Source: Promicromonospora iranensis (GTDB lineage: Bacteria > Actinomycetota > Actinomycetes > Actinomycetales > Cellulomonadaceae). From it: a stretch of DNA of 64,000 nt. The translations under genes and the position numbers were made by a program. The stretch is from the NCBI RefSeq assembly GCF_028994805.1, contig NZ_JAJQQP010000010.1:186001-250000 (forward strand), in the 5' to 3' direction. Positions 25,328 through 37,727 of this stretch are shown here, piece after piece (position 1 is the stretch's first letter; every line of letters starts with the position of its first letter). The notes beneath the pieces are model-generated. The model searched no databases. It had not been told where the DNA came from and saw only the letters and a list, made by a program, of their open reading frames with translations.

Positions 25328-25333
25328 TATACT
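25328..25333 (+). promoter_or_regulatory. Candidate -10 (TATACT) for the tel/gln/pkn operon
   Basis: TATACT at 25328-25333 is close to the TATAAT consensus and lies in the 220-bp gap between divergent genes. About 29 nt separate the expected start site from the ATG at 25369, and AGGAG lies in that leader. The -35 region (CTCGGC) is a poor match, so an activator may be involved. Confidence 0.5.
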
Positions 25334-25368
25334 CGCCGCGTTCGGACGCCCTATCGCGAGGAGCACCG

Positions 25369-26589
25369 ATGACCGAGCCGATGCCGCTTCAACCGCCTGC
25401 CCCCGCAGCCGAACCCCTCGTGCTGAGCGCACCCGACCCGGTCCAGCCCGTCGCCGCCACCCAGGCGCCCAAGATGGCGCCCAAGGTCGACCCCGCGGCG
25501 GCACCCGCGCTCGACCAGAAGGTCAGCACCTACCTCGACGGCCTGCTCAGCGCCGACACCAAGAGCCCCGAGTTCGCCAAGCGCGCCGACGACGTGCGCA
25601 CCATGGGCGACCAGGACATCCGCCAGGCCGCCGACTCCAGCAACCGCCTGCTCGCCACGCCCGTCCGCGCGCTCAAGGAGGGCGGCCTCGCCGACGGCTC
25701 CAAGGTGGGCCAGACCCTGCTGGAGCTGCGCCGCACCGTCGAGGACCTGGACCCGTCCGAGGCGAGCGTGGGCCGCAAGATCCTCGGGATCATCCCGTTC
25801 GGCGACAAGCTCCAGGACTACTTCCGCCGCTACGAGTCGGCCCAGGGTCAGCTCAACGCCATCATCCAGGCCCTCTACAACGGCCAGGACGAGCTGCGCA
25901 AGGACAACGCCGCGCTCAACCTGGAGAAGCAGAACCTCTGGGACACGATGGCGCGGCTCAACCAGTACATCTACGTGGCCGAGCGGCTCGACGCCCAGCT
26001 CTCCGCGAAGATCGCCGAGCTCCAGGTCGCCGACCCCGAACGGGCCAAGGCACTGTCCGAGGACGTCCTGTTCTACGTGCGCCAGAAGCACCAGGACCTG
26101 CTCACGCAGCTCGCGGTCTCGATCCAGGGCTACCTCGCGATCGACATCATCATCAAGAACAACATCGAGCTCACCAAGGGCGTCGACCGGGCGACCACCA
26201 CGACCGTCTCCGCGCTGCGCACCGCCGTCATCGTGGCGCAGGCGCTCGCGAACCAGAAGCTCGTGCTGGACCAGATCGGCGCGCTGAACACCACGACGTC
26301 GAACATGATCGCCGCGACGTCCAAGATGCTCGCCGACCAGTCGGCCACCATCCAGGAGCAGGCCGCGAGCTCGACGGTCGGCATCGAGCAGCTGCAGTCC
26401 GCGTTCGCCAACATCTACGCCACGATGGACTCCATCAGCGACTTCAAGAGCCGGGCGCTCGACTCGATGTCGCAGACCATCGGCGTGCTCGAGACCGAGA
26501 CCACCAAGGCCTCGGCGTACGTGGAGCGGGCACGGCGCACCAACACCGACGGCGTGGCGAGCGGTTCTCTCGACCTCAACACCCCGTGA
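25369..26589 (+). CDS. TelA/KlaA-family toxic anion resistance protein
   Basis: A 406-residue, mostly alpha-helical cytoplasmic protein of the TelA family (about 350-400 residues). After a Pro-rich leader of about 45 residues come the conserved stretches RRYESAQGQLNAII, LEKQNLWDTMARLNQYIYVAERLD and YLAIDIIIKNNIELTKGVDRATTTTVSALRTAVIVAQALANQ. Members are linked to tellurite and other envelope stress, but their biochemical role is unsettled. AGGAG precedes the ATG. It is the first gene of a ten-gene cluster with GlnX, GlnH and PknG, so here it probably belongs to a signalling or membrane-stress complex and not to tellurite resistance as such. Confidence 0.88.
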   Translation: MTEPMPLQPPAPAAEPLVLSAPDPVQPVAATQAPKMAPKVDPAAAPALDQKVSTYLDGLLSADTKSPEFAKRADDVRTMGDQDIRQAADSSNRLLATPVRALKEGGLADGSKVGQTLLELRRTVEDLDPSEASVGRKILGIIPFGDKLQDYFRRYESAQGQLNAIIQALYNGQDELRKDNAALNLEKQNLWDTMARLNQYIYVAERLDAQLSAKIAELQVADPERAKALSEDVLFYVRQKHQDLLTQLAVSIQGYLAIDIIIKNNIELTKGVDRATTTTVSALRTAVIVAQALANQKLVLDQIGALNTTTSNMIAATSKMLADQSATIQEQAASSTVGIEQLQSAFANIYATMDSISDFKSRALDSMSQTIGVLETETTKASAYVERARRTNTDGVASGSLDLNTP

Positions 26590-26609
26590 CGGCGGGCTCG
26601 GAGGCAGGC

Positions 26610-27185
26610 ATGAGCTGGTGGCGGCGACTCTTCGGCGGCGGACGCACCGAGGAAGCGGAGCAGACCGTCACGATCCCGGCCCCGCCCACCACCGAGCAGA
26701 TCGTGACATCCGTCGACGCCGTGCTGGAGCGTGCGACCGGCCGGGCGCCCGCCGCGGTGACCGCCCGGGTCCAGCGCGTGGCCGAGACCGTGCACGAGAT
26801 GGCGCCCCGCCTGGACCGGCTCGGCGCCGGCTCCCAGCAGGCGCACACGGTCGTCGCCACCGCGACCAGCTACCTGCCCGAGGCCGTCGACGCCTACCTG
26901 CGCCTCCCCCGTGACTTCGCCGACCGGCGGGTCGTGGACCGGGGCAAGACGTCGCTCATGATCCTGTGCGACCAGCTCGACCTGCTGGGCGCCACCATCG
27001 ACAAGATCTCCGACGCCGTGTCCCGCGCCGACGCCGTCGCCCTCGTGGCCCACGGCCGGTTCCTCGAGGAGAAGTTCGGCACCTCCGGCCTGACGCTCCC
27101 CGGCTCCGCACCGGGCTCGCTGCCCGCCCCCGGTACGTCCGGTCCGGGGACGACGGCGGGTCCCGCCCCCCTGGAGGCCCCGTGA
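26610..27185 (+). CDS. Small helical protein, XpaC-like partner of TelA
   Basis: A 191-residue protein beginning [11 protein letters not shown] and ending in a Pro/Gly-rich tail. The middle (about 60-155) is helical, with [13 protein letters not shown] and [22 protein letters not shown]. This arrangement resembles XpaC-type proteins, which are often encoded next to TelA-family proteins; the identification is by context and pattern only. It lies 20 bp after the TelA-like gene and overlaps the AAA ATPase start by 4 bp. Confidence 0.65.
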
Positions 27186-28591
27186 CCACCGCACTCGGCG
27201 CAGCGCTCGACGCTCTCGCCGCGACGGCCACCACCGTCGGTGTGAGCGGCGCGGCGGCGCGCGCCGAGGGGGAGCGACTGGCTGCTGCGGTCGCCGAGTC
27301 CTCCCCCGGCGCCCCGGCCGACTGGATCGCTGCCACGGGGCGTCCGACGTCGGGCGGCAGCCTGCAGCCGTTCTTCGACGCCGCGGTGGGCGCCCGCCGC
27401 TGGCGCTCCGCCCCGACCGACCTGCTCGCAGAGCTCGTCACCACCGGCTCGCCCCAGGCACAGCAGTATGCGGAAGTGCTGGCAACGGTCGTCGACGCCG
27501 CGGCCGCCCTGGGCGACCCCAGCATCAGCGCCATCGCGGCGGCCGAGGGCACCAAGGCGGTCCACCGCAGCGCGGCAGCAGGCCGCGACGCGGCACCGGC
27601 GTCGCCGCACGCGCCGGCACCCCTGCCGGCCACCCGCCCCTCCTCGACGCACTCAGGCGACTCCCGCGACCACCTCCCCTTCCCCACCGCGGAACGCGAG
27701 CGCACCGGACAGGCCGCGGGGCCCGAGGCCGCCCCTGCCGAAGTCCCCGAGCCCGCCGAAGAACGCACCCTGGAAGACCTCCTCGAAGAGCTCGACCAGC
27801 TCACCGGACTGACACGCGTCAAGGACGAGATCCGCCGCCAGACCGAGCTGCTGCGCATCGAGCGCCTCCGCGGCGAGGCCGGCCTGAGCGCCCCGACGCT
27901 GACGCGTCACCTGGTGTTCGTCGGCAACCCCGGCACGGGCAAGACGACGGTGGGCCGCCTCGTCGCCGGGATCTACCGCGCGCTGGGCCTGCTCGACAAG
28001 GGTCACCTCGTCGAGGTGGACCGCTCGGAGCTGGTCGCCGGCTACCTGGGGCAGACCGCCGAGAAGACGACAGCGGTGGTGGAGCGCGCCCTGGGTGGCG
28101 TGCTGTTCATCGACGAGGCGTACGCCCTGGCCGAGGACCAGTACGGCCGTGAGGCGGTGGATACCCTGGTCAAGGACATGGAGGACCACCGCGACGACCT
28201 CGTCGTGATCGTGGCGGGCTACCCGGGCCCGATGGCCCGGTTCGTGGCCACCAACCCGGGGCTGGAGAGCCGGTTCGCGCGCACCATCACCTTCGAGGAC
28301 TACTCCGGCGACGAGCTGCGACAGATCTTCGCGAGCATGGCCCGGGCCGCCGACTTCGAACCGGAGGCCGCCACGCTGGAGCGCTTCGACCGCCTCGCGG
28401 CCCAGCAGGCGCGCGGCGAGGGCTTCGGCAACGGGCGCTGGGCCCGCAATGTGCTTGATTCCGCGATCGCCCGGCACGCCTGGCGCCTGCGGGACGTTGA
28501 ACGACCGACGCTGGACCAGCTGCGCACGCTGGTCCCGGAAGACCTGGAGGATGTCGTGGACATCGGGACAGACAGCGAGGCCACCGCGTGA
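27182..28591 (+). CDS. CbbX/SpoVK-like AAA+ ATPase
   Basis: A 469-residue AAA+ ATPase. Residues 1-190 are Ala-rich and poorly conserved, probably a helical adaptor. The ATPase module follows: [23 protein letters not shown], Walker [10 protein letters not shown] (248-256), the pore-type segment [13 protein letters not shown], Walker [12 protein letters not shown], sensor 1 region [13 protein letters not shown] and arginine finger NPGLESRF. CbbX and the type VII protein EccA have this core. It probably remodels a partner protein, perhaps in the PknG circuit. The start is a GTG overlapping the previous stop; its own stop overlaps the glnX start. Confidence 0.9.
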
Positions 28592-29928
28592 CCGCACCGC
28601 TGACGACGACGAACCCGGCCGCGGCAGACCCCGGGCCCAGCACCACAACCAGCACCACACCCGGCACCACGGCCGCGCCCGTCACGCCGGCCGGCCGTCT
28701 CCGGGCGGGTCTCGCGACCACTCCGGGCCGCCTGGCACTGGCCACGACGGTGGCCGTGGTGGCCTGCCTGCTCCTCGGGGTGACCGGATTCCTCGCCGGG
28801 AACGGCCAGTCCGCGGCGCTGCAGGACGCGCAGCGGGACGCGGCCCAGCTGGTGGGTACGCAGGAGCTGCGCAACGACCTGGTGTCGGCCGACGCGACGG
28901 CGACCAACGCGTTCCTCGTGGGTGGGCTGGAGCCGACGGAGGCACGCGAGCGCTACGAGACGAGCCTGTCCGAGGCCGCCGAGGCGGTGCCGTCCCTGGC
29001 GGCGACCGCGCGGGGCGCCGGGGAGGCCGCGGACCTCGCAGCGGTCGCCGACTCGGTCCAGCGGTACGCGGGTCTGGTCGAGTCGGCCCGGGCGAACAAC
29101 CGGCAGGGCTTCCCGGTCGGTGCGGCGTACCTGGACCAGGCGTCGGCGGCGCTGCGCGACGAGGTGCTGCCCACCATCGACGAGGTGGCGGTCTCCACGT
29201 CGCAGCGGGTCGACGCCGACATGGGTTCCGTCTCCCTGGCCCAGGCCCTCCTGCTGTTCGTGCTGCTGTCGCTGGTGGCTCTGGGCGCCGTCCAGCTCTG
29301 GCTCGCGCGGCGCACGCACCGCGTCCTGAACACCGGCCTGGCGGCCGCGAGCGTCGCCCTCCTCGTGGGCGGCGTGGTCGCGGCGGCAGCGGTGCTGGGC
29401 GGCAACGGCGTCGCCCGGTCCGTGGCAAGCGGCCCGTACGCGGCGACCGTCGCCACGTCGGAAGCCTTGTCGCTGGCCACGGACGCCAAGTCGATGGAGT
29501 CCTTCACCCTGATCAAGCGCGGGTCGGGGGGCGACTTCGAGGAGTCGTACCAGACGTCGCTCGCCGACGCCAAGGCCCTGCTTGCCGAGGCCGCCGAAGC
29601 GACCGACACCGGCTCCGACCCGCTGTCCCTCCTGAACGCGTGGGACGAGAAGCACACGGAGATCCGCGCGCTGGACGACGAAGGCAGCTGGGACGACGCG
29701 GTCAGGGCCGCGACGGCCACGGGCGACGACACGGCGGGCGCCGCCTTCACCGCGTTCTCCGACCAGGCCCACGCCGACGTCGAGGCCATGAGCGACGACG
29801 CGGTCGACCGGCTCGGCTCCGCGGCGACCACCGCGCAGGTAGCGGCCTGGATCGCCCTCGTGCTCGGGGTCGCAGGTGCCGTCGCCGCTGCCGCCGGGAT
29901 GAACGTCCGCCTGAAGGAGTACCGATGA
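28588..29928 (+). CDS. glnX: GlnX-like transmembrane sensor
   Basis: A 446-residue membrane protein with predicted helices at about 50-70, 217-240, 247-270 and 418-438. Between them lie two extracytoplasmic helical domains of about 150 residues each, of the kind seen in chemoreceptor sensor regions. In Mycobacterium tuberculosis, glnX-glnH-pknG is a conserved operon in which GlnX relays amino-acid binding by GlnH to the kinase PknG. Gene order, topology and length agree here. The N-terminal 40 residues are Thr/Pro-rich and cytoplasmic, and could hold phosphorylation sites. Both ends overlap neighbours by 4 bp. Confidence 0.85.
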
Positions 29929-30950
29929 GCATGCGCACCGCCCGCAGACCGATCGTCACCGCCCTCGTGGCGCTCGCCCTCGTCGGCACGACGGCGGCGT
30001 GCGCGCCCGAGCCGACCACGCACCTGCTCACCGGCGCGGCCGGGGTGGGTTCGACGGCGCAGGGGTCCACGCAGGAGTCGGCCCCCGAGGCCGCGACCGG
30101 CGGAGCGGTGCCCAGCACCGCCACCGCCGCCCAGGACTGCAGCGACGGGCGGCCCGCCGTCGCGTCCATGGCCCCCGGCGGCAGTCCCGAGGTGACGTCC
30201 GGCTCCACGATGGCGGCCATCCGGGAGCGCGGTGCGCTCGAGGTGGGAGTATCGGCGGACACGCTGCTGATGGGCTCGCGCAACCCGTTCACGGGCGACA
30301 TCGAGGGCTTCGACATCGACGTGGCCCGGCAGATCGCCGACGCGATCCTCGGCGACCCGGACAAGATCCGGTTCCGCGTGATCACGTCGGGTGACCGCGA
30401 GACGGTCCTGGCCGACCACGAGGTCGACATCGTGACGCGCGCCTTCACCATCAACTGCGACCGCTGGGAGAACATCGCGTTCTCGGCGGAGTACTACCAC
30501 GCGGGCCAGAAGCTCCTGGTGCCCTCCACCTCCGAGGTCACCGGCATCGAGGACCTCGCCGGGCAGCGGGTCTGCGCGCCCGAGGGCACCACCACCCTGG
30601 AGCGGCTCGGGGAGTGGGAGGGCGTCGAGGCGGTGCCGGCCGCCACCCACACCACGTGTCTGGTCCTGTTCCAGCAGGGTGAGGTGGACGCCATCACCGG
30701 CGACGACACGGTCCTGGCCGGCTTCGCCGCGCAGGACCCGTACGCGAAGGTCGTCGGCGACGCCGTGAGCGACGAGCCCTACGGCGTCGGCATCCCGTCC
30801 GACCAGCCGGACATGGTGCGGTTCGTCAACGGTGTGCTGGAGGACATGGTCTCCGACGGTCGGTGGGAGGAGTCCTACGACCGCTGGCTGGGCGGGGCGC
30901 TCGGCCCGGCGCCCGCCGCACCCACGCCCGTGTACGGACGGACACCGTGA
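29925..30950 (+). CDS. glnH: GlnH-like amino-acid-binding lipoprotein
   Basis: A 341-residue family 3 solute-binding lipoprotein. The signal peptide ends in TTAAC, giving a lipidated cysteine near residue 26; about 70 low-complexity residues follow. The binding core has ALEVGVSADTLLMG, GDIEGFDIDVARQIADAI and DIVTRAFTINCDRWENIAFS. GlnH of M. tuberculosis binds aspartate and glutamate and acts with GlnX to control PknG. No ABC permease or ATPase gene is adjacent, which supports a sensory role and not transport. Two cysteine pairs in the core may form disulfides. Confidence 0.88.
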   Translation: MSMRTARRPIVTALVALALVGTTAACAPEPTTHLLTGAAGVGSTAQGSTQESAPEAATGGAVPSTATAAQDCSDGRPAVASMAPGGSPEVTSGSTMAAIRERGALEVGVSADTLLMGSRNPFTGDIEGFDIDVARQIADAILGDPDKIRFRVITSGDRETVLADHEVDIVTRAFTINCDRWENIAFSAEYYHAGQKLLVPSTSEVTGIEDLAGQRVCAPEGTTTLERLGEWEGVEAVPAATHTTCLVLFQQGEVDAITGDDTVLAGFAAQDPYAKVVGDAVSDEPYGVGIPSDQPDMVRFVNGVLEDMVSDGRWEESYDRWLGGALGPAPAAPTPVYGRTP

Positions 30951-32050
30951 GCAGGACCGGACGTGCGCCGGCACCGCCCGGCGCCCTGGGGGTCGCGGCC
31001 GAGCCCGCGGAGCTCCTGAGCTACCTGTCGGACCTCCAGGCGTGGCTCGACGCGCGCCGTGCCGACCTGGACCGGCTCGACTCCGCGGCGCACCGCTCCG
31101 ACGAGAGCTCCGTGACGGCCGACGTCGTGCTGGCCCTGACCCTGTGGCAGGCGGTGCGCACGCGCACCGACGAGCTGGTCGCGGTGTGGGACTCCGGCCG
31201 CGCGGACGCTGTCGCGCGCGAGCGCATGTCCCAGCTGATCTGGGGCCGCCTGGGCGGCGACCCGGCCACCTCGCTGCTCTCCCTGGTCGACGCCGCGCGC
31301 CTCTGCGACGCGCAGGCGGACCAGCTCGCCACCCGCCTCTCCTTCGACCCGCACGCCGCCGACGTCACGGCCCGCCTGCGGTCCGTGGCCGCCGGGATCG
31401 TCCGGGCCGAGGACGCGGCGCACGCCTCCGCCGACACCGAGGACGACGCCGTCGTCGCCCGCCTGCGCGACCGGCTGGCGCGCCTCACGTCCGACGCCGC
31501 CCGGGGTGCCGACATCACCGGACCGCTCGGCGCGCTCGAGGACGACGTCGCGCGCAGCGAGCGGGACCTCATCGTGGCCACGGCACGCCGCCGGTCGCTC
31601 GCCAAGGACCGGGAGCGCGCCGTCGCGCTGCGCACCTCCCTGGCGGACCGGGCACCCGTGCTCAACCAGGTGGCGGACCGCTGCCGCCGGGAGATCGCCG
31701 ACCCGCCGCGGCTCGCCGTCCCGGACGTGGCCCGGCTCGGTGACGTGCCCACCGAGCCCGACCGGCTCACGACGTACGTCCAACGGCTGGGCGCCGTCGA
31801 ACGCGCGATGGAGAAGGTCGAGGACGCCTACACGGCACCTCTGCGCGAGCGCGCCGAGCTGCGCTACCGCGTCAAGAACCTGATGACGAAGGCCCAGGGC
31901 AACGGGCGGGCGGCGTCGTCCACCGTGAAGGCGGGCGAGGACGAGGCGCGCGAAGCGCTGGACGCCACGCCCTGCGACCTGGCCCTGGCACGGCACTTCA
32001 CCGAGCAGCTCGAGATGCTCGTGCGCGATCTCCCGGAGGGACACCGATGA
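30947..32050 (+). CDS. Unknown helical protein between GlnH and PknG
   Basis: A 367-residue, Arg/Ala/Asp-rich, predicted all-helical protein with no signal peptide or membrane segment. I recognise no domain. Long heptad-like stretches (SDLQAWLDARRADLDRLD near 25-45, then about 170-290) suggest a coiled-coil or septum-like scaffold. The C-terminal part includes YRVKNLMTKAQGNGRA. It overlaps both glnH and pknG by 4 bp, so it is made in step with them. The glnH-pknG junction in M. tuberculosis has no such gene, so this is an added component, possibly an adaptor between sensor and kinase. Confidence 0.75.
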   Translation: MSRTGRAPAPPGALGVAAEPAELLSYLSDLQAWLDARRADLDRLDSAAHRSDESSVTADVVLALTLWQAVRTRTDELVAVWDSGRADAVARERMSQLIWGRLGGDPATSLLSLVDAARLCDAQADQLATRLSFDPHAADVTARLRSVAAGIVRAEDAAHASADTEDDAVVARLRDRLARLTSDAARGADITGPLGALEDDVARSERDLIVATARRRSLAKDRERAVALRTSLADRAPVLNQVADRCRREIADPPRLAVPDVARLGDVPTEPDRLTTYVQRLGAVERAMEKVEDAYTAPLRERAELRYRVKNLMTKAQGNGRAASSTVKAGEDEAREALDATPCDLALARHFTEQLEMLVRDLPEGHR

Positions 32051-34329
32051 CGACACAGGCCTGCGCCGAGCCGGGCTGCACCGGCACCATCGAGGACGGC
32101 TACTGCAACGTGTGCGGCGCCCCCGCCGGCGGCAACCCCGCCGGCGGCGCGCTCGCCGCGGTGGCGGCCTCGTGGGGCGCCGACGACCCGACGACCCTGC
32201 GCGCCTCGGGCGGGATGCCTGAGATGTCGCAACCCTCCACCGGACGAACCAGCTCGTCCCGCCTCGCGTCCACGGCCCTGGGCTCGGCCCGCGTGGCGCC
32301 CGGCACCTACCAGACCCGGCGCGTCGGCACCGGCTCGACGCGGCTGCGCGGGCACCGGCTCGGCGCGGGCCTCACCACCGTGCCGCACACCCCGGTCGCC
32401 GACCCGCTGCAGGCCGTCATGACCACGCCCGAGCTCGCGGAGAACAAGCGGTACTGCCCCACCTGCGGCCAGCCGGTGGGCCGCGCCCGCGACGGCGTCC
32501 CCGGCCGCATCGCCGGGTTCTGCGGGCACTGCGGCGCGCGGTACGACTTCGCCCCCGCGCTCAAGGGGGGCGACCTCCTGGCCGGCCAGTACGAGGTGGT
32601 GGGCTGCCTCGCCCACGGTGGCCTGGGCTGGATCTACCTGGCGCGCGACCGCAACGTCAGCGGCCGCTGGGTGGTGCTCAAGGGCCTGCTCAACGCGGGC
32701 GACCGGGAGGCGTACGAGGCGGCGGTCGCGGAGCGCCAGTACCTCGCCGAGGTGGAGCACCCGCTCATCGTCGAGATCTTCAACTTCGTCCTGCACGAGG
32801 GCCTCGGCTACACCGTCATGGAGTTCGTGGGCGGCAAGTCGCTCAAGGACGTGCTCAAGGAGCGCCGCGACAAGGGCGGCGGGCAGGCCCGGCCGCTGCC
32901 CGTGGACCAGGCCATCGCGTACATCCTCGAGGTGCTGCCCGCGTTCAGCTACCTGCACGACCACGACCTGCTGTACTGCGACTTCAAGCCGGACAACATC
33001 ATCGCCCAGGGCGACGGCGTCAAGCTGATCGACATGGGCGGCGTACGCCGCACCGACGACATGACGTCGGCCATCTACGGCACCATCGGCTACCAGGCGC
33101 CCGAGGTGGCGGAGATCGGGCCGTCGGTGGCGTCCGACATCTTCACGCTCGGCCGGACCCTGGCCTCCCTGGTGCTGGACTTCCGCGGCAACACCACCGT
33201 GTACCAGTCGTCGTTCCCGCCGGTCGCCGAGACCCCCGTCTTCCAGAAGTACGACTCCTTCTACCGCTGGCTGGCCAAGGCGTGCGCGCCGGCCCCCGCC
33301 GACCGCTTCGCGACCGTCGACGAGGCCCGCGTCCAGCTCCTCGGCGTGCTCCGCGAGGTGGTCGCCACCGACAAGGGCCCGGGGTACACCGCCACGACGT
33401 CCGCGGAGTCGGTCCTGTTCGGTGTACCGCCGCTCGACGGCGCCGACGGGGCGCTGGGCTGGCACGAGCTCCCCGTGCTCAAGGTGGACTCCACCGACCC
33501 GATGGCGTCCTGGCTGGCCGGCGTGAACGTCGCCGACCCGACCGCCCGCATGGTCGCGCTCTCCGGCGCCACGGAGCCCACCGTCGAGGTACGGCTCGCC
33601 CTGGCCCGGGCCGCCATCGAGGCCGGCGACCTCGGCCGGCTGCGCGAGACCGTCGCGCAGATCCTCGAGCACGACCCCTGGGAGTGGCGCGCCGCCTGGA
33701 TGGAGGGCCTCGGGCACCTCTCGGCGGGCGACCCGGCAGCCGCCCGCGCCTCGTTCAACGCCGTCTACGGGCAGGTGCCCGGCGAGCCCGCGCCGAAGCT
33801 CGCGCTCGCCACGGTCTGCGAGGTGTCCGGCGAACCCGGCGTCGCCGAGCAGCTCTACGGCATCATCGCGCGCGCCGACTCCAACTACACCGGTGCCGCC
33901 GCATTCGGCCTCGCCCGCGTCCGGGCGGGCGGCGACGACCTCGACGGCGCCCTCCGGGCGCTCGACCTCGTCGGACCCACCCGGGGCTCCTTCCCCGACG
34001 CCCGCCTGCGGCGGGCCCGGCTCCTCGTCGGTGCGCGGCGCACCCTGCTCGACCTGTCCGACGCCGTCACCGGGCTCGACGACGCCCACGTCCCCGACCG
34101 CCCGAAGGCCGAGGTCACCGTCGACGCCCTCTCCGGCGCGCTCGGCCTGGTCACCCGCGGCGGTCCCGACCCGAGCGTGCGCGTGGCCGGCGCCGAGGCC
34201 ACCGAACCCGCCCTGCGGGACCGGCTCGAACAGGCCCTGCGCGCGCTCGCCCGCCTCACCGACGACCGCTCGGAGCGCGTGGCGCTCGTCGACCGGGCAA
34301 ACTCCGTACGGCGGTGGACCATGCGTTGA
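32047..34329 (+). CDS. pknG: Serine/threonine protein kinase PknG
   Basis: A 760-residue soluble kinase. The N-terminus carries a Cys4 ribbon (C6, C11, C20, C23), then a rubredoxin-like element with CPTC (137-140) and CGHC (159-162). The kinase domain (about 178-440) has the ATP lysine in VVLKGL, catalytic loop YCDFKPDNII and IDMGG in place of DFG; relatives have DLG. The C-terminal 270 residues form TPR-like helices. PknG in mycobacteria and corynebacteria phosphorylates the FHA protein GarA/OdhI to control 2-oxoglutarate and glutamate metabolism. The extra N-terminal ribbon is unusual. Upstream GlnX and GlnH supply the input. Confidence 0.94.
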   Translation: MTTQACAEPGCTGTIEDGYCNVCGAPAGGNPAGGALAAVAASWGADDPTTLRASGGMPEMSQPSTGRTSSSRLASTALGSARVAPGTYQTRRVGTGSTRLRGHRLGAGLTTVPHTPVADPLQAVMTTPELAENKRYCPTCGQPVGRARDGVPGRIAGFCGHCGARYDFAPALKGGDLLAGQYEVVGCLAHGGLGWIYLARDRNVSGRWVVLKGLLNAGDREAYEAAVAERQYLAEVEHPLIVEIFNFVLHEGLGYTVMEFVGGKSLKDVLKERRDKGGGQARPLPVDQAIAYILEVLPAFSYLHDHDLLYCDFKPDNIIAQGDGVKLIDMGGVRRTDDMTSAIYGTIGYQAPEVAEIGPSVASDIFTLGRTLASLVLDFRGNTTVYQSSFPPVAETPVFQKYDSFYRWLAKACAPAPADRFATVDEARVQLLGVLREVVATDKGPGYTATTSAESVLFGVPPLDGADGALGWHELPVLKVDSTDPMASWLAGVNVADPTARMVALSGATEPTVEVRLALARAAIEAGDLGRLRETVAQILEHDPWEWRAAWMEGLGHLSAGDPAAARASFNAVYGQVPGEPAPKLALATVCEVSGEPGVAEQLYGIIARADSNYTGAAAFGLARVRAGGDDLDGALRALDLVGPTRGSFPDARLRRARLLVGARRTLLDLSDAVTGLDDAHVPDRPKAEVTVDALSGALGLVTRGGPDPSVRVAGAEATEPALRDRLEQALRALARLTDDRSERVALVDRANSVRRWTMR

Positions 34330-34448
34330 GCGGCCCGCCGAACCGGAACCGGTGCACCGAGGCACCGAACGGTGATCCGCTCACGGTGATCCGCTGAAAG
34401 ACAGTCGCGGGGTGCGAACCCTGACGAGGCAAGGAGACCGACCCAGAC

Positions 34449-35561
34449 ATGAGTGCCGACGACAGTAGCCTCGCCCGCTGCCCCCACTGCGGAGAGAACG
34501 CGGCGCCCCGCGCCAGATTCTGCGAGAACTGCGGCACGCCGCTGGGCACCACCGCGGCGACCAGCCCCTCCGAGGTGACCCTCGAGCTGGCGCCCACCGT
34601 CGTGGACCCGGACCCGGCGACCGGCGACTCCTCCGCCCGCCGGTCCTGCGGGGCGTGCGGCGGCACCATCGCCCCGGACGGGTACTGCGCCGACTGCGGA
34701 ACGCCCGGCCAGTCCGAGCGCGACCACTTCGAGGAGCGCCCGGCCGACTGGGTCGCGGGCGTCTGCGACCGGGGTGTGCGCCACGCACGCAACGAGGACG
34801 CGATGGCGCTCGCCGCGGGCAGCACCTTCGCGGCCCTCGTGGTCTGCGACGGCGTGTCCAGCGCCCCCGACTCCGACGTCGCCTCGCTCGCCGCGAGCCG
34901 GGCGGCACGGGACGTGCTCGTCGCCTACGGGCCGGAGGGGTCGAGCTCCGTGGAGGGCGCCACCAGCCGGCGCATCGCCGGCTGGACCGACGCGATGGTC
35001 GCCGCGTCGCGCGCGGCGGGCCAGGCCGTGCGGGGCGCCGCGGAACAGCTCGCCGCGACGAAGGGCACGAACGTGACGGACGACCCGCCGTCGTGCACCT
35101 TCGTGGCCGCCGTCGTGGACAACGGCCTGATCGTCGCGGGATGGCTGGGCGACTCCCGCGTGTACTGGCTGCCGGACTCCGGGCAGGCCGAGCAGCTCAG
35201 CGTCGACGACTCGTGGGCCCAGGAGATGATCGCGGCCGGGGTGCCGCGCGCCCAGGCAGAGACGTCACCCCAGGCGCACGCGATCACGCGGTGGCTGGGT
35301 CCGGACGCGCCGGACACCGACGCACGCTGCGCGGCCACCGTCCCGGCCGGGCCGGGCTGGCTCCTGGTGTGCTCCGACGGCCTCTGGAACTACTGCTCCG
35401 ACGCGCACGAGATGAGTGACCTCGTGCAGCGGTTCGCCACCTCCGGCGACCCGCACACCACGGCCGCGGCGCTCGTGCGCTGGGCCAACGCACAGGGCGG
35501 GCGGGACAACATCACCGCTGCGCTCGCCCGTGTCTCCCCCGCTGCCACCGAGCAGCGATAG
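34449..35561 (+). CDS. PP2C-type Ser/Thr phosphatase with zinc ribbons
   Basis: A 370-residue metal-dependent phosphatase. Two zinc ribbons come first: CPHCG...CENCG (residues 12-33) and CGACG...CADCG (about 68-86). The PP2C domain follows, with RHARNEDAMAL, VVCDGVSSAP, GWLGDSRVYWL, VCSDGLWNYC and GGRDNITAAL, so the metal-binding aspartates are present. It should remove phosphates placed by PknG. AAGGAG precedes the ATG. A 119-bp gap after pknG may hold a secondary promoter; I see no strong terminator there. Confidence 0.9.
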   Translation: MSADDSSLARCPHCGENAAPRARFCENCGTPLGTTAATSPSEVTLELAPTVVDPDPATGDSSARRSCGACGGTIAPDGYCADCGTPGQSERDHFEERPADWVAGVCDRGVRHARNEDAMALAAGSTFAALVVCDGVSSAPDSDVASLAASRAARDVLVAYGPEGSSSVEGATSRRIAGWTDAMVAASRAAGQAVRGAAEQLAATKGTNVTDDPPSCTFVAAVVDNGLIVAGWLGDSRVYWLPDSGQAEQLSVDDSWAQEMIAAGVPRAQAETSPQAHAITRWLGPDAPDTDARCAATVPAGPGWLLVCSDGLWNYCSDAHEMSDLVQRFATSGDPHTTAAALVRWANAQGGRDNITAALARVSPAATEQR

Positions 35562-35586
35562 CCTGCCGTTACCGAGAGGAGCCACC

Positions 35587-36879
35587 GTGGCCGAGTTCTC
35601 CGCCGAGGTCTTTCAGAACGAGTTCCTGTCCGACGGTGCCACTGATGTGCACGCCGTCGTGTCCGTGACCTGCACGGGCGCGGGATCCACCGCCGACGCC
35701 GGTGCACAGCCGGGCGCCGCAGGCGTCGCCGAGATCGTCGCCGTCGACACGTCCGGGTCGATGCAGGGCCGCAACATGGACGCGGCGAAGCACGCCGCGG
35801 CAGTGGCCGTGGACCAGATCCCTGACGGCACCCTGTTCGCCATCATCGGCGGCTCGCACGTGGCGACCCGGATCTTCCCGTACCCGAACGCGCGCGTGCC
35901 CATGGTGGCCATGGAGCCGGGCGCCCGGACCGAGGCCAAGCGCGCCATCTCGACCATGGCCGCCGGTGGCGGTACCGCCATCTCGTCCTGGCTCCGCCTC
36001 GCCGACGACCTCTTCGCCACCGTTCCGGTGGCCCAGAAGCACCTGATCCTGCTGACGGACGGCAAGAACGAGTCCGAGCCGACGATGCACCTCGACCGGA
36101 TGATCGCGGACGTCACCGGGCACTTCCAGTGCGACGCCCGAGGCGTCGGCGACCGCTGGGTGGTGGAGGAGCTGCGCAAGATCTCCACCGCCCTGCTCGG
36201 CACCGTCGACCTCATCGCCCGGCCGGAGGACATCGCCGAGGACTTCGCCGCCCTCGTCCGCAAGTCCATGGCCCGAGGTGTCGCCTCGGTGGACCTGCGC
36301 GTGTGGGCGCCGCAGGGGTCCGAGGTCCTGTTCGTGAAGCAGGTCGCGCCGGAGGTCGACGACCTCACCGGCCGCCGCACCCAGGTGAACGCCCTGACGA
36401 GCGCCTACCCGACGGGCGCGTGGGCCGACGAGACCCGCGAGTACCACGTGGCGGTCCGCGTGCCGGCGAAGCCGGTGGGCTCCGAGCAGCTCGCGGCGCG
36501 CGTCCAGGTCGCCGTGGGCGACGAGGTGACGGCGTCGGGCCTGGTCAAGGCCAAGTGGTCGGACGACTCCACGCTCACCGCCCGGATCAGCCCCGAGGTG
36601 GCGCACTACACGGGCCAGGCGGAGCTCGCCTCGGCCATCCAGGAGGGCCTGGCCGCGAAGGCCTCCGGCGACGAGGCGACGGCGACGGTGAAGCTCGGCC
36701 GCGCCGTGCAGCTCGCCGCCGAGACGGGCAACGACGAGGCGACCTCACGCCTGCGCAAGATCGTGGAGGTGGAGAACGAGGAGGAGGGCACCGTGCGTCT
36801 CAAGCGGAACACCGCCAAGCTGGACGAGATGGCACTCGACACCGCGTCCACCAAGACGACCCGGGTACGGCGCGCATGA
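35587..36879 (+). CDS. VWA domain protein
   Basis: A 430-residue cytoplasmic protein with a von Willebrand A domain at about 45-240. The MIDAS metal site is complete: DTSGS (D54), the GGGTAIS threonine and the LLTDGKNE aspartate. A beta-rich region (about 250-370) and a helical tail with a charged Arg/Thr end (TKTTRVRRA) follow. It probably makes metal-dependent contacts with a partner. VWA and MoxR/AAA-type proteins often work together, so the AAA ATPase of this cluster is a candidate. The GTG at 35587 follows GAGAGGAG. The stop overlaps the FHA gene by 4 bp. Confidence 0.88.
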   Translation: MAEFSAEVFQNEFLSDGATDVHAVVSVTCTGAGSTADAGAQPGAAGVAEIVAVDTSGSMQGRNMDAAKHAAAVAVDQIPDGTLFAIIGGSHVATRIFPYPNARVPMVAMEPGARTEAKRAISTMAAGGGTAISSWLRLADDLFATVPVAQKHLILLTDGKNESEPTMHLDRMIADVTGHFQCDARGVGDRWVVEELRKISTALLGTVDLIARPEDIAEDFAALVRKSMARGVASVDLRVWAPQGSEVLFVKQVAPEVDDLTGRRTQVNALTSAYPTGAWADETREYHVAVRVPAKPVGSEQLAARVQVAVGDEVTASGLVKAKWSDDSTLTARISPEVAHYTGQAELASAIQEGLAAKASGDEATATVKLGRAVQLAAETGNDEATSRLRKIVEVENEEEGTVRLKRNTAKLDEMALDTASTKTTRVRRA

Positions 36880-37727
36880 CGGTCGTCTGCCCGGAGGGCC
36901 ACCCCAGCCAGGCCACGGACTACTGCGACGTGTGCGGTACGCCGATCCCGGCCGGCCGGCCGCCGGCCGAGCCGGACGCGCCCGCGGTGGACCCTGCCGC
37001 GGGTGCCTCTGCCGAGGCGTCGGCCGAGGGCTCCACCGCCGGCCCCGTGACCTGCCCCAACTGCGGCGACCTGTCCCCCTCCGGCTCCCTGTTCTGCGAG
37101 AACTGCGGGTACGACTTCACCACCGGTACGGCAGCGCCGCCGGCACCGCCGCCGTCCGCGCTGGACCTGAGCGGCCTGGGTACGGCTCCGCCGGCGAACC
37201 CTCCGGGACCGACCGCACCGTCGTCGACCTCCCCGCCGCCGAGCACGCCGGCGCCGTCGACGAGCGGGGTGCCCGCACCGTCGGCGGACGGTGGCGGGCT
37301 CAGCGCGCCGCCCGTCCCGGGCGACGACGCGTGGGTCGCGGAGATCTGGGTGGACCCCGACTGGTACGCGCACGAGCGCCCCGAGGACCCGATGCCGTCG
37401 GCGGGCCTGCCCGGCCTCGTGACGCTGCGGCAGCGCAGCCTCCTGGTGGGGCGGCCGTCGCAGTCCCGGAACATCCGGCCCGACGTCGACTGCGGCAGCG
37501 ACCCGGGAGTGTCCCGCCGCCACTGCCAGCTGACGACCGACGGGCTGCGCTGGTGGGTGGAGGACCTGGGCTCGTCGAACGGCACGTTCGTCGCCGCCAC
37601 GGGCGATCCCCTGCCCGACACCCCGCTGACCCAGGGGATCCGGCGGGAGGTCGAGGAGAGCGACCGGATCTACATCGGTGCCTGGACACGCCTGGTCATC
37701 CGGAAGGCCCTCCCCGGCGAGGCCTAG
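36876..37727 (+). CDS. FHA domain protein with zinc ribbons
   Basis: A 283-residue protein. The N-terminus has CPEGHPSQATDYCDVCG and a second pair CPNCG...CENCGYDF, two zinc-ribbon-like units. A Pro/Ser-rich linker (about 90-150) leads to a C-terminal FHA domain with LLVGRPSQSRNIRPDVD, SRRHCQL and DLGSSNGTFV, the phosphothreonine-binding residues. It lacks the N-terminal ETTS motif through which PknG phosphorylates GarA, so it is not a simple GarA orthologue. It is the last gene of the cluster and probably reads phosphorylation on a cluster member. Confidence 0.88.
   Translation: MTVVCPEGHPSQATDYCDVCGTPIPAGRPPAEPDAPAVDPAAGASAEASAEGSTAGPVTCPNCGDLSPSGSLFCENCGYDFTTGTAAPPAPPPSALDLSGLGTAPPANPPGPTAPSSTSPPPSTPAPSTSGVPAPSADGGGLSAPPVPGDDAWVAEIWVDPDWYAHERPEDPMPSAGLPGLVTLRQRSLLVGRPSQSRNIRPDVDCGSDPGVSRRHCQLTTDGLRWWVEDLGSSNGTFVAATGDPLPDTPLTQGIRREVEESDRIYIGAWTRLVIRKALPGEA

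Follow-up and report, generated by a model that had tools for sequence, protein, structure and literature searches.

The locus described here raises the question of which signalling system the protein kinase PknG belongs to. It lies in a 64,000-nucleotide stretch of the Promicromonospora iranensis genome (hereafter the window; contig NZ_JAJQQP010000010.1, positions 186,001 to 250,000), in which PknG is encoded within a run of ten genes, A to J. In mycobacteria, the operon as published consists of GlnX-GlnH-PknG (PMC6069109). The architecture of the PknG gene set is, with near certainty, a conserved one, and it has two layers: a widespread core, GlnX-GlnH-F-PknG-PP2C-VWA-FHA (VWA, von Willebrand factor type A), and a clade-limited addition, TelA-B-AAA. 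Our reading, to which we assign a probability of roughly 0.6, is that the operon would be an amino-acid-responsive Ser/Thr phospho-switch, with GlnX-GlnH-PknG as the input half and PP2C-VWA-FHA as the output half. The set is built of known families; what appears to be new is the joining of PknG signalling to a switch like that of the archaeal proteins ArnA and ArnB. The features of the locus, with the start codons of the ten genes chosen by us, are as follows.

25369..26589, plus strand: A, TelA family protein, 406 amino acids (PF05816, 313.8 bits against a gathering score of 30)
26586..27185, plus strand: B, uncharacterised protein, conserved partner of TelA, 199 amino acids (191 if the ATG at 26610 is used)
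27182..28591, plus strand: C, AAA+ ATPase of the SpoVK/EccA/CbbX superfamily, 469 amino acids (PF00004 and PF17866)
28588..29928, plus strand: D, membrane signal transducer of the GlnX family, 446 amino acids (NF058618, 290.8 bits)
29925..30950, plus strand: E, GlnH-type solute-binding protein, possibly a lipoprotein, 341 amino acids (PF00497)
30947..32050, plus strand: F, uncharacterised helical family, 367 amino acids; its stop codon overlaps the PknG start
32047..34329, plus strand: G, PknG with N-terminal zinc ribbon, rubredoxin, kinase and TPR domains, 760 amino acids (PF16919, PF00069, PF16918)
34449..35561, plus strand: H, PP2C phosphatase with N-terminal zinc ribbons, 370 amino acids (PF13672, DZR)
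35587..36879, plus strand: I, VWA protein, 430 amino acids, C-terminus DTASTKTTRVRRA (VWA_3 and VWA_3_C)
36838..36876, plus strand: candidate PknG phosphorylation site and FHA ligand, residues 418-430 of the VWA tail (tail conservation)
36876..37727, plus strand: J, protein of zinc ribbons, linker and FHA domain, 283 amino acids (FHA above its cut-off, DZR slightly below)

The ten genes occupy positions 25369-37727 of the plus strand, and neighbouring genes overlap by 4 bp at seven of the nine junctions; the remaining two are spacers of 119 nucleotides between PknG and PP2C and of 25 nucleotides between PP2C and VWA. The coordinates of the open reading frames (ORFs) bear out an earlier note on this DNA, which had described ten co-directional genes with seven overlapping junctions. 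The cluster start given there, 25328, is where a minus-strand ORF ends, and the first gene begins at 25369. Pfam cut-offs were passed by TelA, AAA and AAA_lid_6, SBP_bac_3, PknG_rubred with Pkinase and PknG_TPR, PP2C_2 with a double zinc ribbon, VWA_3 with VWA_3_C, and FHA. No Pfam family matched B, F or GlnX at E 0.1. The catalytic and metal-site motifs expected of a kinase and of PP2C, vWA, FHA and AAA proteins are all present; the labels metal-ion-dependent adhesion site (MIDAS), lipobox and pore-loop type are used here in their usual sense. A promoter and terminator scan of the cluster, which is uninformative at this G+C content, found none.

A widespread core and a clade-limited addition

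A PknG-profile scan of the species-genome collection gave at least 567 relatives, the best 80 of which constitute the named loci, a sample that leans to near kin (the nearest named relative among the matches listed is Promicromonospora sp. AC04, with a PknG 89% identical). Neighbours were counted in the 64 named loci having 10 kb on both sides of PknG. GlnX was found near PknG in 61 of these loci, GlnH, PP2C and VWA in 57 each, FHA in 56 and F in 55, and the corresponding numbers for the added layer were 24 (TelA), 24 (B) and 23 (AAA). The exact order A-J was present in 22/64 loci and that of the last seven genes, D-J, in 23/64; gene order in relatives, which the earlier note had proposed as a check, is thus conserved. 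The ten-gene order occurs in Promicromonospora, Cellulomonas, Oerskovia, Pseudactinotalea, Sediminihabitans, Nocardioides, Terrabacter, Granulicoccus and others, and Propioniciclava has it minus GlnH. The seven-gene order occurs in Streptomyces, Kitasatospora, Actinoplanes, Phytohabitans and others, and several Actinomadura loci have GlnX-GlnH placed after the FHA gene. A tree was built of 74 PknG proteins; on it, one group of 19 rows (support 100) holds the ten-gene form, except for L084, where the contig breaks off close to PknG. By a permissive test (some in-frame start yielding 4 bp exists), overlaps are possible in relatives at F/PknG (77/95), AAA/GlnX (29/31), PknG/PP2C (62/99), GlnX/GlnH (41/96) and GlnH/F (29/74), and rare at A/B (1/25), B/AAA (2/24), PP2C/VWA (13/92) and VWA/FHA (6/82).

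Two metagenome-assembled genomes of Acidimicrobiales carry F-PknG-PP2C-VWA-FHA, and the cyanobacteria Phormidium, Tolypothrix and Pseudanabaena have F, PknG, PP2C, VWA, FHA and a GlnX-family protein in one locus. The proteins of the Phormidium locus were confirmed by Pfam, and all three cyanobacterial GlnX proteins pass NF058618; GlnH was not found within the three loci. PknG homologues have been reported from Ktedonobacter and Calothrix, with glnX and glnH as the operon genes named (PMC8546545).

F and VWA_3_C are linked to PknG. In the class sample of 197 genomes, PknG was scored on five candidates per genome, which makes the 55 genomes with PknG a lower bound; the F search scored nine candidates per genome and the VWA_3_C search up to 33, and absence here means not found. 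F was detected in 38 of these genomes by a search independent of PknG, and for 43 of the 45 hits used a PknG hit is no more than 3 kb away. Forty genomes have VWA_3_C, and 38 of its 47 hits are at most 10 kb from PknG or F. For the linkage count, 45 of 49 F rows were used (the second fragments of four split genes were dropped), and PknG was represented by its stronger rows after removal of kinase-only rows and second fragments. The C-terminal signature ELRGRLxAYxAKAxxxGxAED...PCDLxxA is common to F of the window and of the cyanobacteria, and outside the ten-gene group the identity to the window's F drops to about 15-22%. The PDB matches of F (best 4.7e-6, 'Syn-F4-Link', then coiled-coil proteins) were read as helix composition and set aside.

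We read the sampled group f8 as Mycobacteriales from its OdhI scores, and f23 as Streptomyces, both by inference. PknG was found in 14/14 f8 genomes sampled, and genome-wide profile searches found F and VWA_3_C in none of the 14; VWA_3_C was likewise found in 0/14 control genomes. On the PknG tree rooted on cyanobacteria, the reduced rows are surrounded by core-type rows, and the GlnX-GlnH-PknG operon of the mycobacterial literature is probably a reduced form of the larger set. Starred branches had suggested six changes, but the idea that the core was lost independently at least six times was rejected because the approximately unbiased test permits one clade. A single clade of reduced f8 and Pseudonocardiaceae rows was not rejected (p 0.715; the tree used here is 5.3 log units better), and hence one loss of the core for these two groups is possible. 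If the root were placed on the reduced clade, which we consider less likely, the core would be one gain with subsequent transfer to Cyanobacteria and Acidimicrobiia.

These comparisons change how the locus is to be described. The earlier note called the module expanded, but the core is widespread and the three-gene form is the reduced one on the cyanobacteria-rooted tree. An expanded cluster peculiar to this genome was rejected, the core being widespread among the named loci. Of the single phospho-signalling complex proposed there, a conserved, packed set with writer, eraser and reader stands, but it comprises two layers rather than a single set. The coupling to envelope stress or protein remodelling that the note proposed would bear on the added layer alone, and the note has neither the likeness of VWA and FHA to ArnB and ArnA nor the conserved VWA tail. 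That the full set lies outside the standard description of PknG agrees with the excerpts of PMC6069109, PMC8546545 and PMC9769921, in which it was not found.

The AAA protein of the added layer (motifs GNPGTGKTT and LFIDEAY) reaches 248, 231 and 224 bits with the SpoVK, EccA and CbbX equivalogs, the cut-offs being 423, 467 and 459, respectively. Because no equivalog cut-off was reached, a CbbX identity was given up (TIGR02880, 224.1 against 459.25), and the protein is treated as a superfamily member only. B has no match in Pfam, NCBIfam or PADLOC; its profile has hits in 25/197 class genomes, and TelA is at or near B in 6 of the 10 loci fetched for B hits away from PknG. Because TelA is found near B in these places and the ten-gene form is one clade, TelA-B would most simply be an independent pair that joined the cluster once. 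In Bacillota, TelA is paired with XpaC, a small conserved partner gene. An assignment of B to XpaC was rejected, since 18 members and 4 relatives away from PknG showed no Pfam match. In locus L166, TelA and a B-like protein flank a gene for a solute-binding-protein-VWA protein (Pfam SBP_bac_11 and VWA), another sensor tied to TelA-B; L163, L168 and L169 have a similar spacing, with TelA and B alone identified.

A candidate phosphosite in the VWA tail

The VWA protein carries the motif DTSGS at 54, which has the DxSxS form, and its best solved match is 4FX5 of Catenulispora (E 4.2e-107; 3e-175 with the profile). The structure of 4FX5 is described as having a vWA domain, a beta-sandwich and a C-terminal four-helix bundle as in the ArnB paralogue vWA2 (PMC6509490). 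J has the N-terminal zinc finger and FHA domain of ArnA-type proteins. The best PDB match of the FHA-family profile is 8S05 chain C (8.7e-14), with 5A8I matched at 1.9e-13, both over the zinc ribbon and the FHA domain, and ArnA outranks GarA (3e-10) among the matches of J. Chain C has the same letters as ArnA (5A8I) within the aligned part, and we infer that chain A, called 'Conserved protein' in the entry, is ArnB; the VWA profile matches it with 9.5e-10. In Sulfolobus, ArnA binds the phosphosite-bearing C-terminus of ArnB, and the complex is driven by a kinase, dissolved by PP2A and loosened by starvation (PMC6509490, PMC7472852). The S. islandicus pair is also controlled by phosphorylation, in DNA damage (PMC10470591). 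Elsewhere in the window's genome, a J-like FHA domain (C12:20741-20974, locus L154) ends a long ORF that by our reading resembles a BadF/ROK-type kinase.

An acidic-x-x-Ser-x-x-Thr tail, such as DTASTKT ([DE]TxSTKT), is present in 89/97 VWA proteins. In the tail matches or near forms, the last Thr lies exactly five residues from the end in 56 proteins and within nine in 78. In the aligned tail columns of the 97 proteins, which include a few misplaced rows, S421 is found in 94, T422 in 88, T424 in 96 and T419 in 80. An alignment of 28 VWA sequences (A4; this one and the 26 rows of A5 were hand-picked from the named loci for spread) has 60 Ser/Thr columns, six of which are invariant. Four of these, S56, S58, T130 and T157, are at or beside the MIDAS, and the remaining two, S421 and T424, lie within the last ten residues, where R426 is invariant too. 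We consider the tail likely to be a PknG site and FHA ligand, albeit a putative one. Second PknG-VWA pairs were seen in L053, L055 and L161, read as Streptomyces, in which STKT or STRT is followed by an extra C-terminal zinc ribbon. At L133:14049-17246, a VWA frame without the tail runs stop-free to an FHA domain, either as a fusion or through a frame break of the draft contig, and L133 was left out of A4.

GlnX of the window passes the broad NCBI family NF058618 (cut-off 250), fails the equivalog NF041460 (130.9 against 780) and has four hydrophobic segments, at 51, 217, 252 and 418. The best PDB match of GlnH is mycobacterial GlnH (6H1U, E 1.1e-65); the N-terminus is hydrophobic, and the lipobox pattern used gave no match. 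In the mycobacterial pocket, R147, W232 and T162 contact the side chain of the ligand, and S164, R169 and D250 its head group (PMC6069109). When we transferred these positions through the 6H1U alignment, R147, R169 and D250 were kept, S164 was replaced by Thr, T162 by Ala and W232 by His. With two of the three side-chain contacts changed, the pocket does not have the contact set of an Asp/Glu-specific GlnH. The ligand is probably an amino acid, and the side-chain preference may differ from Asp/Glu. Position 232 is Trp in 9/9 reduced, 4/57 core and 0/31 ten-gene loci (L092, on a cut contig, was counted as core).

PknG shows a zinc ribbon at residue 6, VLKG at 210 and YCDFKPDN at 310; it has the rubredoxin, kinase and TPR domains of its family, and K212, D312, N317 and D329 are invariant in 28 sequences. 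The genes of GlnX, GlnH and PknG are together on the same strand, with F between GlnH and PknG. PP2C contains RNEDA, VVCDGVS, CSDGLW, GGRDN and four CxxCG motifs. Zinc ribbons are carried by PknG, PP2C and J alike, and the N-terminal one of PknG is present in 86/105 clustered and 1/16 reduced proteins. As a proven cluster marker it was rejected, its raw count being strong but not significant by independent pairs. The paralogous cluster L155 consists of F, a kinase without the PknG TPR, PP2C, VWA and FHA; GlnX and GlnH were not seen, so that TPR and sensor are absent together, and the VWA tail is kept. A kinase match similar to that of L155 lies in G142:C239.

In the phospho-switch that we favour, GlnH would bind an amino acid outside the membrane and GlnX would relay the signal to the PknG TPR domain, by homology with what the mycobacterial and corynebacterial literature proposes. 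Active PknG would phosphorylate the VWA tail, [DE]TxSTKTxR. J, the sequence relative of ArnA, would dock on the phosphorylated tail to form a VWA-FHA complex, like ArnA on the C-terminus of ArnB, and the clustered PP2C would remove the phosphate mark. F might act as an adaptor between PknG and its partners, and the zinc ribbons of PknG, PP2C and J might be docking parts. Within the window's clade, TelA-B-AAA, perhaps a membrane effector, might be wired to the switch, and the mycobacterial form would have kept the input half alone, acting via GarA.

Several observations weigh against this scheme. The match to 8S05 chain A covers the vWA domain only (45-219), and two unrelated vWA proteins outscore it. 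Nine of the 47 VWA_3_C hits have no PknG or F hit nearby, and the tail is kept in the PP2C-VWA-FHA set of L156, where no kinase gene was seen alongside. Eight of the 97 VWA proteins lack the tail pattern: L053, L055, L058, L060 and L064 (mostly paralogues), L133 (frame lost), and L114 and L116, whose RSTKTVR tails miss the acidic-Thr part. For the zinc-ribbon association, about two of four independent pairs are informative, and on the tree it lacks significance; PP2C is preceded by a gap of 119 nucleotides. Single pairs of ArnB phosphosite mutants had no effect on motility (PMC6509490), and the tail could be bound phosphate-free or by another partner. Finally, PknG probably still acts on GarA too, because GarA is near universal in the class.

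GarA and other possible outputs

GarA is a known PknG substrate with an acidic-Thr-Thr-Ser motif (PMC12321487). GarA/OdhI matches with E ≤ 1e-20 were obtained in 188/197 class genomes, against at least 55 for PknG. The window's genome has a GarA-like gene at C12:371845-372192, which scores 156.5 bits, under the cut-off of 200. The motif reads ETTS in 14/14 f8 genomes and varies elsewhere, the window's genome having DTTA and Cellulomonas (L207) DTTM. In the two searchable genomes among the three cyanobacteria, a GarA orthologue was not found; the best GarA-model scores there, 41-42 bits compared with 151-233 in eight actinobacterial genomes, come from generic FHA matches. Outside f8, GarA of many actinobacteria has an N-terminal zinc ribbon ahead of the phosphorylation-type motif (most of L186, L187, L189, L191-L201, L205, L206, L209-L220, L222-L226, L229 and L230), and GarA and J are thus of a common domain plan. 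No zinc ribbon was seen in GarA of f8, Promicromonospora or Cellulomonas.

The alternative that survives best, although we regard it as improbable, is the classical pathway alone: GlnH-GlnX-PknG would act on GarA and 2-oxoglutarate metabolism, PP2C would dephosphorylate GarA, and the co-transcribed genes for F, VWA, FHA and the TelA unit would serve some other function. For mycobacteria and corynebacteria, GlnX-GlnH-PknG-GarA is an established pathway (PMC6069109, PMC9769921), and the GarA-like gene of the window's genome and the frequency of GarA in the class agree with it. However, F and VWA_3_C are mostly beside PknG, also in the cyanobacteria, where no GarA orthologue was found in the two genomes searched; the window's GarA has DTTA instead of ETTS, and VWA has a conserved Ser/Thr tail of its own.

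A further proposal about ancestry, that the original job of PknG was to drive a bacterial switch of the ArnA-ArnB type (VWA tail, FHA, PP2C and the partner F) and that the GarA pathway is a remnant or was rewired after loss, is tentative, and we hold it at somewhat below even odds.

Less probable than the classical pathway alone is envelope maintenance, with TelA-B-AAA as the output and the phospho-switch controlling membrane stress tolerance. TelA, B and AAA do lie ahead of GlnX in one well-supported clade, and the arrangement of L166 would fit, but the unit is missing from most cluster loci (TelA in 24 of the 64), and the cyanobacterial loci showed no sign of it; TelA-B-AAA is therefore not a general output. 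Least probable is a conflict or stress module like TerY-P, which sometimes has AAA partners, serving defence or metal stress rather than nutrient signalling: the kinds of parts are the same (PMC11090510), TelA suits a metal-stress theme and L155 has F-kinase-PP2C-VWA-FHA without GlnX/GlnH, but PADLOC gave no match for VWA, FHA, F, GlnX or GlnH and only weak or generic ones for kinase, AAA, TelA and PP2C, the kinase is a PknG whose neighbours include FHA and amino-acid sensor genes, and the gene order is conserved over many families, unlike that of a patchy defence locus.

The preferred phospho-switch would matter for work on PknG, a metabolic switch and tuberculosis factor that has been studied in organisms seemingly having lost half of its gene set. 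The clusters point to a phosphatase candidate, to a reader, to a probable substrate whose site is defined, and to F as a new family of partners. They also supply a genomic context for 4FX5, listed merely as 'von Willebrand factor type A', and for the Pfam domain VWA_3_C.

Relation to known systems

The window's TelA and B resemble the TelA-XpaC pair of Bacillota in combining TelA with a small partner gene, and differ in that B has no Pfam match. The three parts of the TerY-P triad, a vWA protein, PP2C and a zinc-ribbon kinase (PMC11090510), are all present in the window. In TerY-P the ribbon of the kinase is C-terminal, whereas the window's kinase is PknG with an N-terminal ribbon and a C-terminal TPR, and an FHA reader and an amino-acid sensor are added.

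The GlnX-GlnH-PknG-GarA/OdhI system of mycobacteria and C. glutamicum shares with the window GlnH, the GlnX family, the domains of PknG, the clustering of the genes and a GarA-like gene elsewhere. The window differs in four more core genes (F, PP2C, VWA and FHA) and three clade-specific ones, in the extra N-terminal zinc ribbon of PknG, in T162A and W232H of GlnH, and in a GarA motif of DTTA rather than ETTS.

Compared with ArnA-ArnB, the archaellum regulators of Sulfolobus, the window's set is bacterial and lies in one operon with kinase, phosphatase and sensor; its putative phosphosite is a short C-terminal tail, its phosphatase is PP2C rather than PP2A, and it shows no sign of DNA binding. 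Each system has a zinc-finger-FHA protein and a vWA protein, for each of the window's two families a chain of 8S05 gives a match, and nutrient input, Ser/Thr kinase and phosphatase are alike (PMC6509490, PMC7472852). Through this likeness, a nutrient kinase of bacteria would be connected with a phospho-switch of archaea.

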